Shown in pieces: positions 43,465 to 54,393 of a stretch of 64,000 bases of DNA. The notes under the pieces were generated by a model that ran no database searches, had not been told where the DNA came from, and saw nothing but the letters and a program-made list of their open reading frames with translations. Within the stretch, counting starts at the first letter, position 1. Every line of letters starts with the position of its first letter. The stretch spans positions 1-64,000 of the forward strand of contig JAFXKX010000001.1 of assembly GCA_017531505.1 (NCBI GenBank), written 5' to 3'. The stretch is from Clostridia bacterium (lineage in GTDB: Bacteria > Bacillota > Clostridia > Christensenellales > Christensenellaceae). The translations under genes and the position numbers were made by a program.

Positions 43465-44454
43465 ATGCATAGCGAACAAGGAAATGTTAAGATTTTTGCC
43501 GGAAAAAGCGGACACAGTTTTGCAAAGAAAATGTGTAATTATCTGGGCGCCGAAATGGGCAACTCCGAGGTAATCCATTTTTCCGACGGTAATATTTTTG
43601 TACGAATTAAGGAAACTGTAAGAAACAGTGATGTATACCTCGTCCAGCCGATCGGCATGGACCCCAATAATGAACTGGTAGAGATCCTCTTCTGGATCGA
43701 CGCATTCAAGCGCGCAAGCGCAAGCTCTGTTACCGTAATCGTGCCTTACTTCGGCTACGCAAAGGGCGACAAGAAGGATGAACCTCGTGTATCCATCCGT
43801 GCAAGAGTATGCGCAGACTGTATCGAAGTAGCAGGCGCAGACAGATTCATCACCATGGACCTGCATGCTCCTCAGATCCAGGGCTTCTTCCGTATTCCGT
43901 CGGATCACCTCTATTCTCTGCCGCTGCTGTGCGAGAGCGTAAAGAACTATGTAAACGTAGACAATCTGGTCGTTGTATCTCCTGATGCAGGTTTTGCAAA
44001 GACTGCCAGAAAATATGCCGACTATCTGGGTACCCCCGTTGCGATCGGCGACAAGACCCGTGTTGCACACGATGAAAATGCAAAGATCCTCGAGCTCATC
44101 GGCGATGTAGAGGGTAAGGAATGCCTTATCGTAGATGACTTCAGCATCTCCGGCGGTACGCTGATCGATATCGCAAATGTGCTCAAGGCAAAGGGCGCAA
44201 CCAAGATCATTGCTTGTCTGGGACACAACATCCTGCGTGAATCCGGCATAAAGCGTATCGAAGAAAGCCCCATTGAACTGGTTATTTCTACCGATACCGT
44301 AGAAAACCCCTTCGTGGCAGAATCTCCCAAGATGATCACTGTTTCTGCAGCACCGTTGTTCGCAGAAGCGGTATCCCGTATCCATGACAGAGTATCTGTC
44401 AGCCCCTTGTTTGAAAAGGTACCGGCAAAGGTATTGGCAGATTCCGAAAAGTAA
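43465..44454 (+). CDS. prs: Ribose-phosphate pyrophosphokinase
   Basis: Makes PRPP from ribose 5-phosphate and ATP for nucleotide, His and Trp synthesis. 329 residues. FSDGNIFVRIKETVRNSDVY is the ATP/flexible-loop region, PYFGYAKGDKKDEPRVSIRA the next conserved block, and AGADRFITMDLHAPQIQGFF follows. The PRPP loop reads IVDDFSISGGT near 221-231, a variant of the usual VDDxxDTxGT. That variant and the EPRVSIRARVCADCIE stretch suggest a subfamily different from B. subtilis Prs, though the function call is firm. Start fixed by GGGAGAT; the nearby upstream ATG frame stops at once. Confidence 0.93.
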   Translation: MHSEQGNVKIFAGKSGHSFAKKMCNYLGAEMGNSEVIHFSDGNIFVRIKETVRNSDVYLVQPIGMDPNNELVEILFWIDAFKRASASSVTVIVPYFGYAKGDKKDEPRVSIRARVCADCIEVAGADRFITMDLHAPQIQGFFRIPSDHLYSLPLLCESVKNYVNVDNLVVVSPDAGFAKTARKYADYLGTPVAIGDKTRVAHDENAKILELIGDVEGKECLIVDDFSISGGTLIDIANVLKAKGATKIIACLGHNILRESGIKRIEESPIELVISTDTVENPFVAESPKMITVSAAPLFAEAVSRIHDRVSVSPLFEKVPAKVLADSEK

Positions 44455-44495: not shown

Positions 44496-44522
44496 TTATT
44501 GTCTGAAATGATGCATAAAAAA

Positions 44523-44546
44523 CGGTGCAGACAAATGCCTGCACCG
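44523..44546 (-). terminator. Terminator of the SIS gene triplet
   Basis: 8-bp stem CGGTGCAG/CTGCACCG followed on the minus strand by TTTTTTAT, 11 bp after the last SIS gene. Confidence 0.85.
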
Positions 44547-44557
44547 CTGTGATTTGA

Positions 44558-45202
44558 TTATTCGAGGTTGTTGTGATAGAAGCCGATATCTTCAGCCTTG
44601 GCACCGATTTTCTGCATAACGACCTGTTTGATAACTTCATTCAGTGCGAAGGAAGATTCATAGTAGCCGGTTACGCCATCGTAAGCCATCTGTTCTCTCT
44701 GTTCGGGAGTCAGACCCCAGTCAACACGCTGACCATGAGTTTTTTCTCTGGAAGCGGGCTTGGGAGGACGGAAGTTGTTCTTCTGCAGTCTGGGAACGGT
44801 AACGTTGATGTCAGCGATCTCGCCGATGTTGGAATTGTCGGGAGCATTGCCGGAGATCAGGGCGACCGTAGCACCCATCGCTTTTGCCTGCTGGGCAATG
44901 ATGGTGATGGTCTTGGTGTTACCGGAACCGGAGTTGATCAGCAGAATATCACCTGCCTGAATGGAACGGGTGGAGTTATCACCTACGCAATAAACGATCA
45001 TACCGATCTGAGACATATCCATGCCCAGGATGCGGACAACGTTACCGGCACGGCCCCAGCCTGCGGTAAAGATGTTATGACCGCTCTTATGAGCGTTTGC
45101 GATTGCCTCTGCGATCGCTTCGATCTGCGCGGGATCTACCATTTTCAATGTCTCGGCAATATTGTTGCCTGCACATTCCAGCAATTTATTAATATCTAAC
45201 AT
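44558..45202 (-). CDS. SIS-domain sugar-phosphate isomerase, HxlB-like (copy 1)
   Basis: 214 residues. SIS fold with TAGWGRAGNVVRILGMDMSQ at 46-65 and SGSGNTKT at 91-98. The C-terminus YESSFALNEVIKQVVMQKIG ends in FYHNNLE, like the HxNLE end I recall for Bacillus HxlB (6-phospho-3-hexuloisomerase). HxlB usually has SGSGET; here Glu is Asn. An extra positively charged insert (about 135-160) with NNFRPP precedes DWGLTPEQREQM. No hxlA synthase is in the window. Third of three tandem paralogues; AAAGGAG lies 11 bp before the start. Confidence 0.8.
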   Translation of the reverse strand: MLDINKLLECAGNNIAETLKMVDPAQIEAIAEAIANAHKSGHNIFTAGWGRAGNVVRILGMDMSQIGMIVYCVGDNSTRSIQAGDILLINSGSGNTKTITIIAQQAKAMGATVALISGNAPDNSNIGEIADINVTVPRLQKNNFRPPKPASREKTHGQRVDWGLTPEQREQMAYDGVTGYYESSFALNEVIKQVVMQKIGAKAEDIGFYHNNLE

Positions 45203-45251
45203 ACGCTTTGTACTCCTTTCTGATATTTAACAACGAATTCGAAAAGGTTGA

Positions 45252-45899
45252 TTATTCGAGGTTGTTGTGGAAGAACATAGGATCTTCTTCACGAGCACCG
45301 ATCTTGGGCATTACGATCTTTCTGATAACTTCGTTCAGAGCGAAAGCGGATTCATAGTAACCGGTTACATTGTCATAACCCATCTGGATTCTCTGTTCCT
45401 GAGTCAGACCCCAGTCAACACGCTCGCCCAGACCCTTGTTCTTGGAGTTGGGGTTTACGGGAGGACGGAAATCGTTCTTCTTCAGTCTGGGAACGGTAAC
45501 GTTGATGTCAGCGATCTTGCCGATGATGGATGCATCGGGAGCATTGCCGGAGATCAGAGCAACAGTAGCGCCCTGTTCTTTAGCCTGTTCAGCCAGAACA
45601 GCGATGGTCTTGGTGTTGCCGGAACCGGAGTTGATCAGCAGGATGTCACCGGGGTGAATGGAAGGAGTGCCGTTGTCGCCTACGCAGTAAACGAGCATAC
45701 CGATCTGAGACATGTTCATGCCCAGGATACGGATAACGTTACCGGCACGGCCCCAGCCTGCGGTGTAGATACGATGACCGTTGTTGTGAGCCTCTGCGAT
45801 AGCAGATGCGATTGCCTCGATCTGATCGGGGTCAACCATGTTCAGAGTCTCTGCGATATTGTTACCGGCACAAGCCAGCATTTTTTTGATATCAAACAT
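45252..45899 (-). CDS. SIS-domain sugar-phosphate isomerase, HxlB-like (copy 2)
   Basis: 215 residues, very similar to copy 1 along the whole length (for example both have AGNNIAETL, AGWGRAGNV, VYCVGDN and NVTVPRL). Motifs: SGSGNTKT, FRPPVNPNSK insert, RVDWGLTQEQR and end FFHNNLE. It is most likely a recent duplicate of copy 1. The active-site region VGDNGTPSI replaces the VGE(I/T)xTP seen in HxlB. 49 bp from copy 1 and 19 bp from copy 3 in one operon with individual AAAGGAG sites. Confidence 0.8.
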   Translation of the reverse strand: MFDIKKMLACAGNNIAETLNMVDPDQIEAIASAIAEAHNNGHRIYTAGWGRAGNVIRILGMNMSQIGMLVYCVGDNGTPSIHPGDILLINSGSGNTKTIAVLAEQAKEQGATVALISGNAPDASIIGKIADINVTVPRLKKNDFRPPVNPNSKNKGLGERVDWGLTQEQRIQMGYDNVTGYYESAFALNEVIRKIVMPKIGAREEDPMFFHNNLE

Positions 45900-45918
45900 G
45901 TGTGTACTCTCCTTTTAA

Positions 45919-46560
45919 TTATTCAAGGCTGTTGTGGTAGTAGTGAACTGCTTCGAAGGTCTCGCCGATTTCTTCCATTACTCTGTGCTGGATGATTTCG
46001 TTGAGGACGAAAGCTGCCTGATAAGTGAGCTCCATCTGTTCGAGGGTGATAGCTTCTCTCTCTTCGGGAGTCAGATCATAGGTCTCACGAGTACCAGCGG
46101 TGCTCTTGAACTTGGGATCTCTCGGAGGTCTCTTGGTAGCCATGATCTTGTTCATGGGAGTTTCGATGCGCGGGATAACTACGTTGTAGTCAGCGATTTC
46201 ACCGATGATAGAGTTAGCATTGGTGGAGATCAGACCAACGGTTGCGCCGAAGTCCTTAGCTTCCTTAGCGATGATAGAGATAGTCTTGGTGTTGCCGGAA
46301 CCGGACATAACCAGCAGAATGTCATCGGGCTGGATGGAGGGAGTATTGTTGTCGCCTACGCGGAAAACAACTTTACCGATCTGAGACATATCCATACCCA
46401 GAATGCCTGCTACGTTACCTGCACGGCCCCAACCGGAAACGAAAACGCGGTTAGCTTTTGCGATTGCTTTTGCCAGGGCGTCTACCTGAGCAGGGTCTAC
46501 TTTGGACAGAACCTCTGCAACATGGTTGCCGGCCTGAATCAGAATTTGTTTGGTATCCAT
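45919..46560 (-). CDS. SIS-domain sugar-phosphate isomerase, HxlB-like (copy 3, divergent)
   Basis: 213 residues from the ATG at 46560 (AAAGGAG with a 7-nt gap; an ATG two codons earlier is too close). It shares GWGRAGNVAGILGMDMSQIG, VGDNNTPSI, SGSGNTKT and the end YYHNSLE with the others but lacks the helix insertion before RVFVSGW and has a different charged middle (MATKRPPRDPKFKSTAGTRE), so it is the older branch. First gene of the triplet operon, with its own promoter and a palindrome at the start site. Confidence 0.8.
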   Translation of the reverse strand: MDTKQILIQAGNHVAEVLSKVDPAQVDALAKAIAKANRVFVSGWGRAGNVAGILGMDMSQIGKVVFRVGDNNTPSIQPDDILLVMSGSGNTKTISIIAKEAKDFGATVGLISTNANSIIGEIADYNVVIPRIETPMNKIMATKRPPRDPKFKSTAGTRETYDLTPEEREAITLEQMELTYQAAFVLNEIIQHRVMEEIGETFEAVHYYHNSLE

Positions 46561-46587
46561 ATTCATTCTCCTTTTTAATCTTGGTAA

Positions 46588-46651: not shown

Positions 46652-47428
46652 TCACGGGATCATTGTGACGCCGCCCTCTGCCATGATGGTTTGACCGGTA
46701 ATATGGCGGGAATCTTCGCTTGCAAGGAATACGGCAACAGGTGCGATATCTTCGTATGCATCGCCGATACGGCCGATGATGGTGGGATTAAAGCCCAGCT
46801 TCATGGGATCGCGCTCGCCCTCAGGCATCTTTTCCAGCTGCTCATAATAAAAGTCGGTGATAGCACCGGGGTTGATGGTGTTGACGTTGATATTGTATTT
46901 GCCCCATTCACGTGCGGCAGTACGTGCCATGGCACGGGTCGCTTCCTTGATGGCACCGTAAGCGGTCATGCCAAACTGACCTTCTACGCCGGCACCGGAG
47001 CCTACGCAAATGACTTTGCCGTGACCGCTCTTTTTGAGCCACGGGAAGCATAGACGCATCATGTGGAAACTGCTCATCAGACCGCTCTGATAGAACATAT
47101 CAAAGTCTTCCTGTGTGTGATCCTCAAAATGTTTATGACCGCAGGTGGTGGCCATGGCATTGTTGTATAAAATATCGATACCGCCAAACTTCTCTGCAGT
47201 GGCAGCAACAAATGCCTCCATCTGGTCGATTTTGGTGACGTCGCATACAAAACTCAGCACTTCGGCACCTGCTTCGCGACAAAGACGCTCTGTCTCGGCC
47301 AAGCGATCGAGACTGCGGGCACAAATAGCCAGATTTGCGCCTTCCTCTGCATACTTGATGGCGATCTGTTTGCCAAGGCCCCGGCCGGCGCCGGTAACGA
47401 TAGCGGTCCTACCCTCTAATTTTCCCAT
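46652..47428 (-). CDS. SDR-family oxidoreductase
   Basis: 258 residues, classical short-chain dehydrogenase/reductase. NAD(P)-binding TGAGRGLG is at 12-19, YNNAMA near 88 (NNAG variant), Ser144, Tyr157 and Lys161 form the catalytic set (YGAIK). NPGAITDFY is after the active site and ITGQTIMAEGGVT is the usual end. Substrate not known; it lies upstream of the SIS triplet on the same strand, 85 bp away, but the triplet has its own promoter. Might act on a sugar or polyol linked to the SIS substrates (inference). Confidence 0.88.
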   Translation of the reverse strand: MGKLEGRTAIVTGAGRGLGKQIAIKYAEEGANLAICARSLDRLAETERLCREAGAEVLSFVCDVTKIDQMEAFVAATAEKFGGIDILYNNAMATTCGHKHFEDHTQEDFDMFYQSGLMSSFHMMRLCFPWLKKSGHGKVICVGSGAGVEGQFGMTAYGAIKEATRAMARTAAREWGKYNINVNTINPGAITDFYYEQLEKMPEGERDPMKLGFNPTIIGRIGDAYEDIAPVAVFLASEDSRHITGQTIMAEGGVTMIP

Positions 47429-47478: not shown

Positions 47479-47507
47479 ATGGTAATACTTCTGCAAAAAA
47501 GTGTCAA
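47479..47507 (-). promoter_or_regulatory. SDR gene promoter
   Basis: On the minus strand TTGACA (47502-47507), a 17-bp spacer and TACCAT (47479-47484). Back to back with the ilvE promoter. Confidence 0.5.
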
Positions 47508-53266: not shown

Positions 53267-54259
53267 TCAGACGATATCGTCGTTGGGGAAGTGCATTCCC
53301 ATGATCTCTCTGGCACGGTCCATGACTTTGAAAGAAGTGAGGGAGCGGGCATTGAAGGGGGCTTCACTGCCGTCTGCCTTTTGGATCATCTCGATAAATG
53401 CCTGTACTTCATAGGCAAGGTCTTTGCGGAAGGGGATATCTTCCAGCGGTAATTCCTCTGTGGTACCGTCTCGGTAGGTGATGGATACTTTCATAGGAGC
53501 GCTCATACCCTGAATGGTCATATATCCTTCCTCACCCTGGATCTCACAATGGTTTGCGGAAGGAGCAACTTTGCCGTAGAACATGGTGACCAGCATCGTC
53601 TCGTAAGAAGCGGTGATCATACCGACACCGTCCAACCCGTTATGCAGCTTGATGGCAGCGGCGGTGATATCCTGCGGCATACCAAACAATCCGGTCATAA
53701 AGTTCATAGTATATACGCCCAGATCCATCAGCGCACCGTTGGCAAGTTCAGGCACAAAGGCATTTTCGATGATGCCCTGCTTGAAGTTATCGTATCTTCT
53801 GGAGTAGGAGCAGCTGGACAGGATGGCTCTGCGAAGGGTGCCCAACTTGGGCAAAGCCTCGCGGATGCGGGCATAGTTGGGGTTAAATGCAGTACGCACG
53901 GCCTCCAGCAGCACAACATTGTTTTCTTTGGCGACCTCCATCATCTGTTCCCATTCACGGGCATTGGCCGCGCCGGATTTTTCGACCAGCACATGCTTGC
54001 CTGCGCGCATCATCTGGATGGCGTACTCTTTATGAGAATAGTTGGGTGTGGCGATATATACGGCATCTACCTCGGGGCAGGCAGCTACGGATTCCAAATC
54101 GGTAAACCACAAGGGGGCACCCCACTGCTCTGCATATTCGCGGGCGCGCTCTTCGCGGCGGGAGTGTACCGCCATCAGTTTGAAATCAGGGCAGGACCGT
54201 GCCGCGCCCAATACATAGTCGGTGATAAAATTGGTGCCGATGACAGCAAAACGTACCAT
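53267..54259 (-). CDS. Gfo/Idh/MocA-family oxidoreductase
   Basis: 330 residues from the ATG at 54259 (AAAGGAAG upstream; the frame extends but crosses the promoter). Rossmann N-domain: MVRFAVIGTNFITDYVLGAA, then DAVYIATPNYSHKEYAIQMM and the EKSGAANA motif, with catalytic-type Lys in VLVEKSG. The C-terminal domain includes GALMDLGVYTMNFMTGLFG. Acts on a sugar, polyol or similar compound by family; no closer call. Divergent from mnmA with facing promoters. Confidence 0.88.
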   Translation of the reverse strand: MVRFAVIGTNFITDYVLGAARSCPDFKLMAVHSRREERAREYAEQWGAPLWFTDLESVAACPEVDAVYIATPNYSHKEYAIQMMRAGKHVLVEKSGAANAREWEQMMEVAKENNVVLLEAVRTAFNPNYARIREALPKLGTLRRAILSSCSYSRRYDNFKQGIIENAFVPELANGALMDLGVYTMNFMTGLFGMPQDITAAAIKLHNGLDGVGMITASYETMLVTMFYGKVAPSANHCEIQGEEGYMTIQGMSAPMKVSITYRDGTTEELPLEDIPFRKDLAYEVQAFIEMIQKADGSEAPFNARSLTSFKVMDRAREIMGMHFPNDDIV

Positions 54260-54296
54260 AATGAACTTCCTTTCTGTAAGGGAAATCTTTACTTTC

Positions 54297-54325
54297 AGTA
54301 TACGGAAAAAGGGCGTCATAGTCAA
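54297..54325 (-). promoter_or_regulatory. Promoter of the Gfo/Idh/MocA gene
   Basis: On the minus strand TTGACT (54320-54325), a 17-bp spacer and TATACT (54297-54302). Confidence 0.75.
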
Positions 54326-54342
54326 TAAAACAGGCTTTTTTA

Positions 54343-54371
54343 TTGACTTGCCACGCCGATTGGGATATTCT
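54343..54371 (+). promoter_or_regulatory. mnmA operon promoter
   Basis: TTGACT (54343-54348), a 17-bp spacer and TATTCT (54366-54371), 23 bp before mnmA; divergent from the promoter at 54297-54325. Confidence 0.75.
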
Positions 54372-54393
54372 ATCATAGACGAGGTGTTGTATT

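Follow-up and report, generated by a model that had tools for sequence, protein, structure and literature searches.

Three consecutive genes for SIS-fold proteins lie in the window, the 64,000-nucleotide stretch of Clostridia DNA analysed here, and the locus raises the question of whether they encode 6-phospho-3-hexuloisomerase (HxlB) or isomerases with another substrate. The window comes from an assembly (G000) of 1.1 Mb that is 80.5% complete. A sequence-only reading of the window had described three tandem genes of about 214 codons each, and open reading frames of 214, 215 and 215 residues are indeed present on the minus strand between 44558 and 46566 (Table 1). The three genes are real, full length and under purifying selection (pN/pS of 0.04-0.36 across the SIS genes and about 0.06-0.20 for SIS3). 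The gene order on the minus strand is SDR, SIS3, SIS2, SIS1, with gaps of 85, 19 and 49 nt. The promoter-like site upstream of the SDR gene is a candidate operon start and the strong terminator-like hairpin after SIS1 a candidate operon end; the stretch from SDR to SIS1 is therefore likely to be one operon, with the SDR gene probably co-transcribed with the SIS genes in G000. Codon bias is strong in the SIS genes (Nc of 33-39, compared with 40-43 for ftsH and prs), with SIS2 the most strongly biased of the 14 window genes measured (Nc 33.4), which suggests strong expression.

Table 1. Features of the SIS locus and its surroundings (window coordinates unless a locus is named).
Feature	Position	Strand	Description
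SIS3	45919..46566	-	215 aa; first SIS gene of the operon; HxlB-like phosphosugar isomerase, GWGRAGN clade
SIS2	45252..45899	-	215 aa; second SIS gene, 19 nt after SIS3
SIS1	44558..45202	-	214 aa; third SIS gene; extra SIS2-type copy
SDR-family oxidoreductase	46652..47428	-	upstream of SIS3; adh_short_C2, E 7e-50
Promoter-like site upstream of SDR	47479..47507	-	TTGACA-17-TACCAT, 10/12 matches; consensus match only
Terminator-like hairpin after SIS1	44521..44548	-	12-pair stem then T run; consensus match only
Ribose-phosphate pyrophosphokinase (prs)	43465..44454	+	convergent neighbour, outside the operon; named by sequence recognition
Gfo/Idh/MocA-like dehydrogenase	53267..54376	-	also L040:3952-4935, L041:7878-9119, L039:1-983

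All three proteins carry the GWGRAGN and SGSGNTKT motifs and end in HNNLE, HNNLE and HNSLE, as the earlier reading had it. Its description of copies 1 and 2 as near duplicates is too strong, with 76% identity between the two (and 56% between copies 1 and 3). The best NCBIfam model for each protein is HxlB (TIGR03127; E values of 8e-31 for SIS1, 5e-30 for SIS2 and 7e-34 for SIS3), and the HxlB-like assignment is confirmed by matches far beyond chance; models other than those for HxlB reach only 1e-9 or weaker, against 1e-30 to 1e-34. However, the TIGR03127 scores of 107, 105 and 117 bits (range 104.7-117.2) fall 43-55 bits under the curated cut-off of 160 bits, which places the proteins outside the curated HxlB family. 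The gathering cut-off of the SIS domain superfamily (PF01380; 25 bits) is passed with 25.5, 30.2 and 45.1 bits.

The AlphaFold2 model of SIS3 (31 sequences; pLDDT of 90.7) has HxlB/YckF as its nearest solved structure (1m3s; Z of 24.5, r.m.s.d. of 1.8 over 174 residues), and the top structural matches are YckF, AF1796, 9lj9 and MJ1247 (Z of 24.5-22); other SIS proteins match from a Z of 20.5 down. By family searches, tree and predicted structure alike, SIS1-3 are nearest to HxlB, yet they lie outside the curated family. With HxlB (PHI; YckF 1m3s, MJ1247 1jeo, AF1796 1vim) they share the SIS fold over the whole length (Z of 22-24.5), the GR and SGSG-T phosphate loop and the C-terminal H-x-N-L-E; they differ in lacking an HxlA neighbour and in roughly 30 extra residues ahead of the last long helix, as well as in the residues described below. 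The PHI half of the bifunctional HPS-PHI protein (NF041755; 9lj9) has the same fold and phosphate loop (Z of 22.3), but SIS1-3 have no fused or adjacent HPS domain and score 85-102 bits against a cut-off of 500. The arabinose-5-phosphate isomerases KdsD/GutQ share the SIS fold with SIS3 (2xhz; Z of 19.5), although the sequence match is weak (kpsF, E of 5e-4, for SIS3 only); the best TIGR00393 (kpsF) score is 19.7 bits against a cut-off of 203.7, and no CBS domain is matched in SIS1-3. The sedoheptulose-7-phosphate isomerase GmhA has the fold as well (Z of about 17-19), and here SIS1-3 reach 16.6-21.2 bits against the TIGR00441 cut-off of 209.45.

A MAFFT alignment was used to compare the GWGRAGN clade (39 proteins) with 14 HxlB-type references. 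The references have an invariant Arg (AMR) and His (MH) and a nearly invariant Glu (SLFE). In SIS1-3 and nearly all of the clade the Arg is replaced by Asp or Asn, the His by Gln (with one His) and the Glu by Tyr, the register at this last column being uncertain because the Tyr aligned there is followed by Glu in SIS1 and SIS2 and by Gln in SIS3, in every species compared. The GR, the SGSG-T loop and the terminal H-x-N-x-E are retained, and in alignment the last of these places its His opposite the SHP His of Escherichia coli KdsD, a catalytic residue in that enzyme. Since the titles and abstracts of the open-access literature yielded no roles for the HxlB active-site residues, it is from their invariance that we infer the Arg, His and Glu to be catalytic. 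The replacements for which a new function had originally been proposed are two others, SGSGET to SGSGNT and VGE to VGD(N); both are present in all three copies but say little about function, as ordinary HxlB varies at both sites. The structure entry of MJ1247 names it HxlB (PHI) in its title, and this protein has SGSGRT; VGD is present in one protein that scores above the HxlB cut-off, L069, as well as in L072-L075, so that neither change is diagnostic. As judged from the alignment, the Arg, His and Glu replacements are the stronger evidence of changed chemistry, and their presence throughout the clade supports the proposal that these are HxlB-like but diverged proteins, probably with a different specificity. 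The Asp at the Arg position was considered as a GmhA-like catalytic acid and ruled out, as Asp and Asn alternate among the SIS2 orthologues.

Loss of the conserved Glu and His could instead mean that catalysis has been lost. The proteins would then be sugar-phosphate sensors or regulatory subunits, resembling the SIS domains of RpiR/MurR regulators and DiaA; a phosphate loop kept while Arg, His and Glu are lost would suit this role, and after the HxlB enzymes the structural matches include MurR/RpiR-type regulators, NanR and DiaA. We regard it as very improbable, however: no DNA-binding domain was found in SIS1-3, the codon bias (Nc of 33-39) suggests strong expression, the terminal His is conserved and the HxlB enzymes fit the fold better (Z of 22-24.5 against 20.5 or less).

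The locus was then compared across seven genomes of the genus (G000, containing the window, to G006), each representing a species. SIS3 is followed directly by SIS2 in all seven, with orthologues that are 82-92% identical for SIS3 and 71-81% for SIS2, while SIS1 is found only in the window's species. SIS1 branches within the SIS2 clade, though support is modest (80/81), and its dS to SIS2 is 0.61, compared with 0.97 or more to any other species. The conserved unit is SIS3-SIS2, a two-gene operon that would form the functional core and to which a third copy has been added in the window's species; a conserved triplet, as had been suggested, is not what the genomes show. Within the pair, the Glu or Gln that follows the aligned Tyr appears as a consistent difference between the partners. 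The pair is intact despite changes in its surroundings: prs and ilvE flank it in G000, G002 and G003 (with prs synteny kept in G002 and G003), prs lies about 5 kb away in G001, and none of the compared window neighbours is found beside it in G005 or G006. Because SIS3 and SIS2 are kept together in every species, a heteromeric or cooperating enzyme stays plausible; conserved adjacency suggests co-expression, not necessarily a complex.

The proposed link to the SDR gene fares less well. An orthologue adjoins the SIS genes in only two of the seven species (G000 and G002, 90% identical), is unlinked in two (G005 and G006, 85-86% identical) and was not found at an E value of 1e-40 in three (G001, G003 and G004). 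This distribution rules out the SDR as a general partner enzyme. In four of the seven species a gene recognised from its sequence as a Gfo/Idh/MocA-like dehydrogenase is found no more than about 8 kb from the pair (Table 1); in G004 it lies directly upstream of SIS3. In G001 a 1059-aa protein with a TIR-type-like start (AFISYRHKPLDRTAAEMIQ) is encoded between the SIS pair and prs (L041:12620-15799).

In the tree, the 39 proteins with the GRAGN motif form one clade with 100/100 support on a branch of 1.07, apart from the references and from a second group of genes (cluster C, below), and every member belongs to the window's genus. SIS1-3 are therefore not nested inside ordinary HxlB, the placement that would have spoken against the sequence-only reading; the HxlA-like genes that this refutation also called for do occur in other parts of the genome (below). 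Cluster C splits into two groups, one of them near the references; several reference branches are long, which leaves the branching order among the references unsure. An initial tree with KdsD and GmhA as outgroups had branches of 4.5-4.7 that attached implausibly, and the tree was rebuilt without them.

The clade is part of a wider expansion, confined to this genus, of an enzyme that is normally present in a single copy. This genus of uncultured Clostridia holds 10-14 HxlB-like genes per genome together with three or four HxlA-like genes; the counts of HxlB-like reading frames are 14 (one broken) in G001, 13 in G002, 10 in G003, 11 in G004, 13 in each of G005 and G006, and five in the incomplete G000. 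They are arranged as the SIS3-SIS2 pair (pair A), cluster B (two to four in tandem), cluster C (five in tandem) and singles. G000, an 80% complete assembly, yielded neither cluster B nor cluster C, and the sequence that carries them may be missing from it. Cluster C is orthologous gene by gene in six species, and each of its genes has its own pattern at the HxlB-conserved positions (L035:6805-9725, L043:5715-8624, L046:4949-7985). A PfkB-type kinase gene comes after cluster B in G001, G003 and G004 (L044:4266-7857, L078, L081), with an inositol-monophosphatase-like gene also present in G001 and G004. PfkB-type kinases beside both clusters, and a ManA-like gene beside cluster C in G005 and G006 (named by sequence recognition), hint at sugar catabolism. 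A pseudogene related to the window's SIS group is present in G001 (C9:49205-49855, L048), broken by one TGA and one TAG.

Comparable numbers were not seen in relatives. In evenly drawn samples, HxlB-like matches occur in 10 of 290 other genomes of the class (E of 1e-25, at most two each) and in 26 of 397 other genomes of the phylum (at most three intact), so that none of nearly 690 sampled genomes has more than three intact copies; sister genera in the family have zero to two. A motif scan of GTDB genomes, which needs exact matches and could miss a diverged relative, found GWGRAGN nowhere outside the window's genus: the five assemblies matched (a goat omasum MAG, RGIG2794; RUG12779; and three other MAGs) all have its cluster layouts. 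Six pattern matches in viral contigs included no relative, and a viral origin was rejected. With 10-14 of the genes in a genome of only 1.4-2 Mb given over to a single enzyme family, of which sampled relatives have zero to three, these bacteria are under unusual metabolic pressure. No paper on SIS paralogue expansion, or on the system in gut genomes, was found among the titles and abstracts of the open-access literature.

The clusters clearly arose by tandem duplication, and the paralogues vary at active-site-like positions, with the five-gene cluster the most variable. Together with the single unpaired members (L029, L030, L042), this would fit a set of separate homomeric isomerases, each with its own sugar phosphate, in which the tandem arrangement would be a product of duplication and diversification, and being co-transcribed would say nothing about structure. 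Such an arrangement is possible, if somewhat unlikely, given that SIS3 and SIS2 are never apart in seven genomes.

The absence of a hexulose-phosphate synthase, which the first reading had noted, holds for the vicinity of the SIS genes but not for the genome. Four HxlA-like genes are present in G000: a tandem triplet (C7:57479-59597) and a lone gene (C11:8085). They score 134-195 bits for TIGR03128 (cut-off 200) and are not adjacent to the SIS genes; the other species of the genus have three or four, and no HxlA-like gene was found beside any SIS cluster in the genus genomes. The nearest solved structures to the one HxlA-like protein tested are the hexulose-phosphate synthases 3ajx and 3f4w. 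Eight HxlA-like paralogues all have Asp8, Glu30, the D-x-K-x-x-D motif and His134, which correspond to residues known from the active site of the HPS/KGPDC family. Only two of the 290 other class genomes have any HxlA-like match at an E value of 1e-25.

These genes bear on whether SIS1-3 might after all be ordinary HxlB that fixes or detoxifies formaldehyde together with the HxlA-like enzymes from other loci of the genome. In favour are the best family match, which is HxlB, the complete catalytic motif of the HxlA-like genes in the same genome and the presence of one or two HxlB-like copies in some sister genera. The scores are nevertheless under the HxlB cut-off, three HxlB-conserved residues are replaced throughout the clade, one reaction does not need 10-14 copies and linkage to the HxlA-like genes is lacking, all of which make this role improbable. 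If annotated by similarity, many of the proteins will be named '6-phospho-3-hexuloisomerase', a doubtful basis on which to attribute formaldehyde fixation to the genus.

The reading that we favour, at close to an even chance, is that SIS1-3 are lineage-specific, perhaps heteromeric phosphosugar isomerases, with SIS3-SIS2 as the core, and that their substrate is not hexulose-6-phosphate. Repeated duplication enlarged this HxlB-related clade. Its members are most likely active isomerases that would assemble as HxlB does, probably as tetramers, and SIS3 and SIS2, as two co-expressed subunit types, probably belong to the same or cooperating complexes. The sugar phosphate would be bound through the conserved SGSG-T loop and the conserved C-terminal His would be used; the substrate may be something that the co-expanded HxlA-like enzymes produce, or a precursor for them. 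A bolder version, which we consider unlikely, would make each tandem array (pair A and clusters B and C) one hetero-oligomeric isomerase with a composite active site and, with the three or four HxlA-like aldolases/decarboxylases, a previously unknown sugar-phosphate pathway seen so far in one genus of uncultured gut Clostridia. The genus has multiplied both halves of the ribulose monophosphate module, with conserved residues altered in the isomerase half. This points to sugar-phosphate or one-carbon chemistry, in anaerobes of gut and rumen, that is still undescribed, and the genus may itself carry out such sugar-phosphate reactions.

The reverse ribulose monophosphate route as the only source of ribose-5-phosphate was rejected, as a transketolase-type gene is present in all seven genomes and a ribulose-phosphate 3-epimerase in six. 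In most species the HxlA-like tandem arrays share a conserved neighbourhood that includes polA- and ftsZ-like genes; arrays of three (L031:7480-9598, G000) and four (L089:6343-9025, G005) have the D-x-K-x-x-D motif intact in every copy. In G001 an HxlA-like reading frame of 390 aa (L094:7788-8960, corresponding to C11:107787-108959) continues in frame with an N-terminal acetyltransferase-like stretch, either a fusion or a misplaced start.
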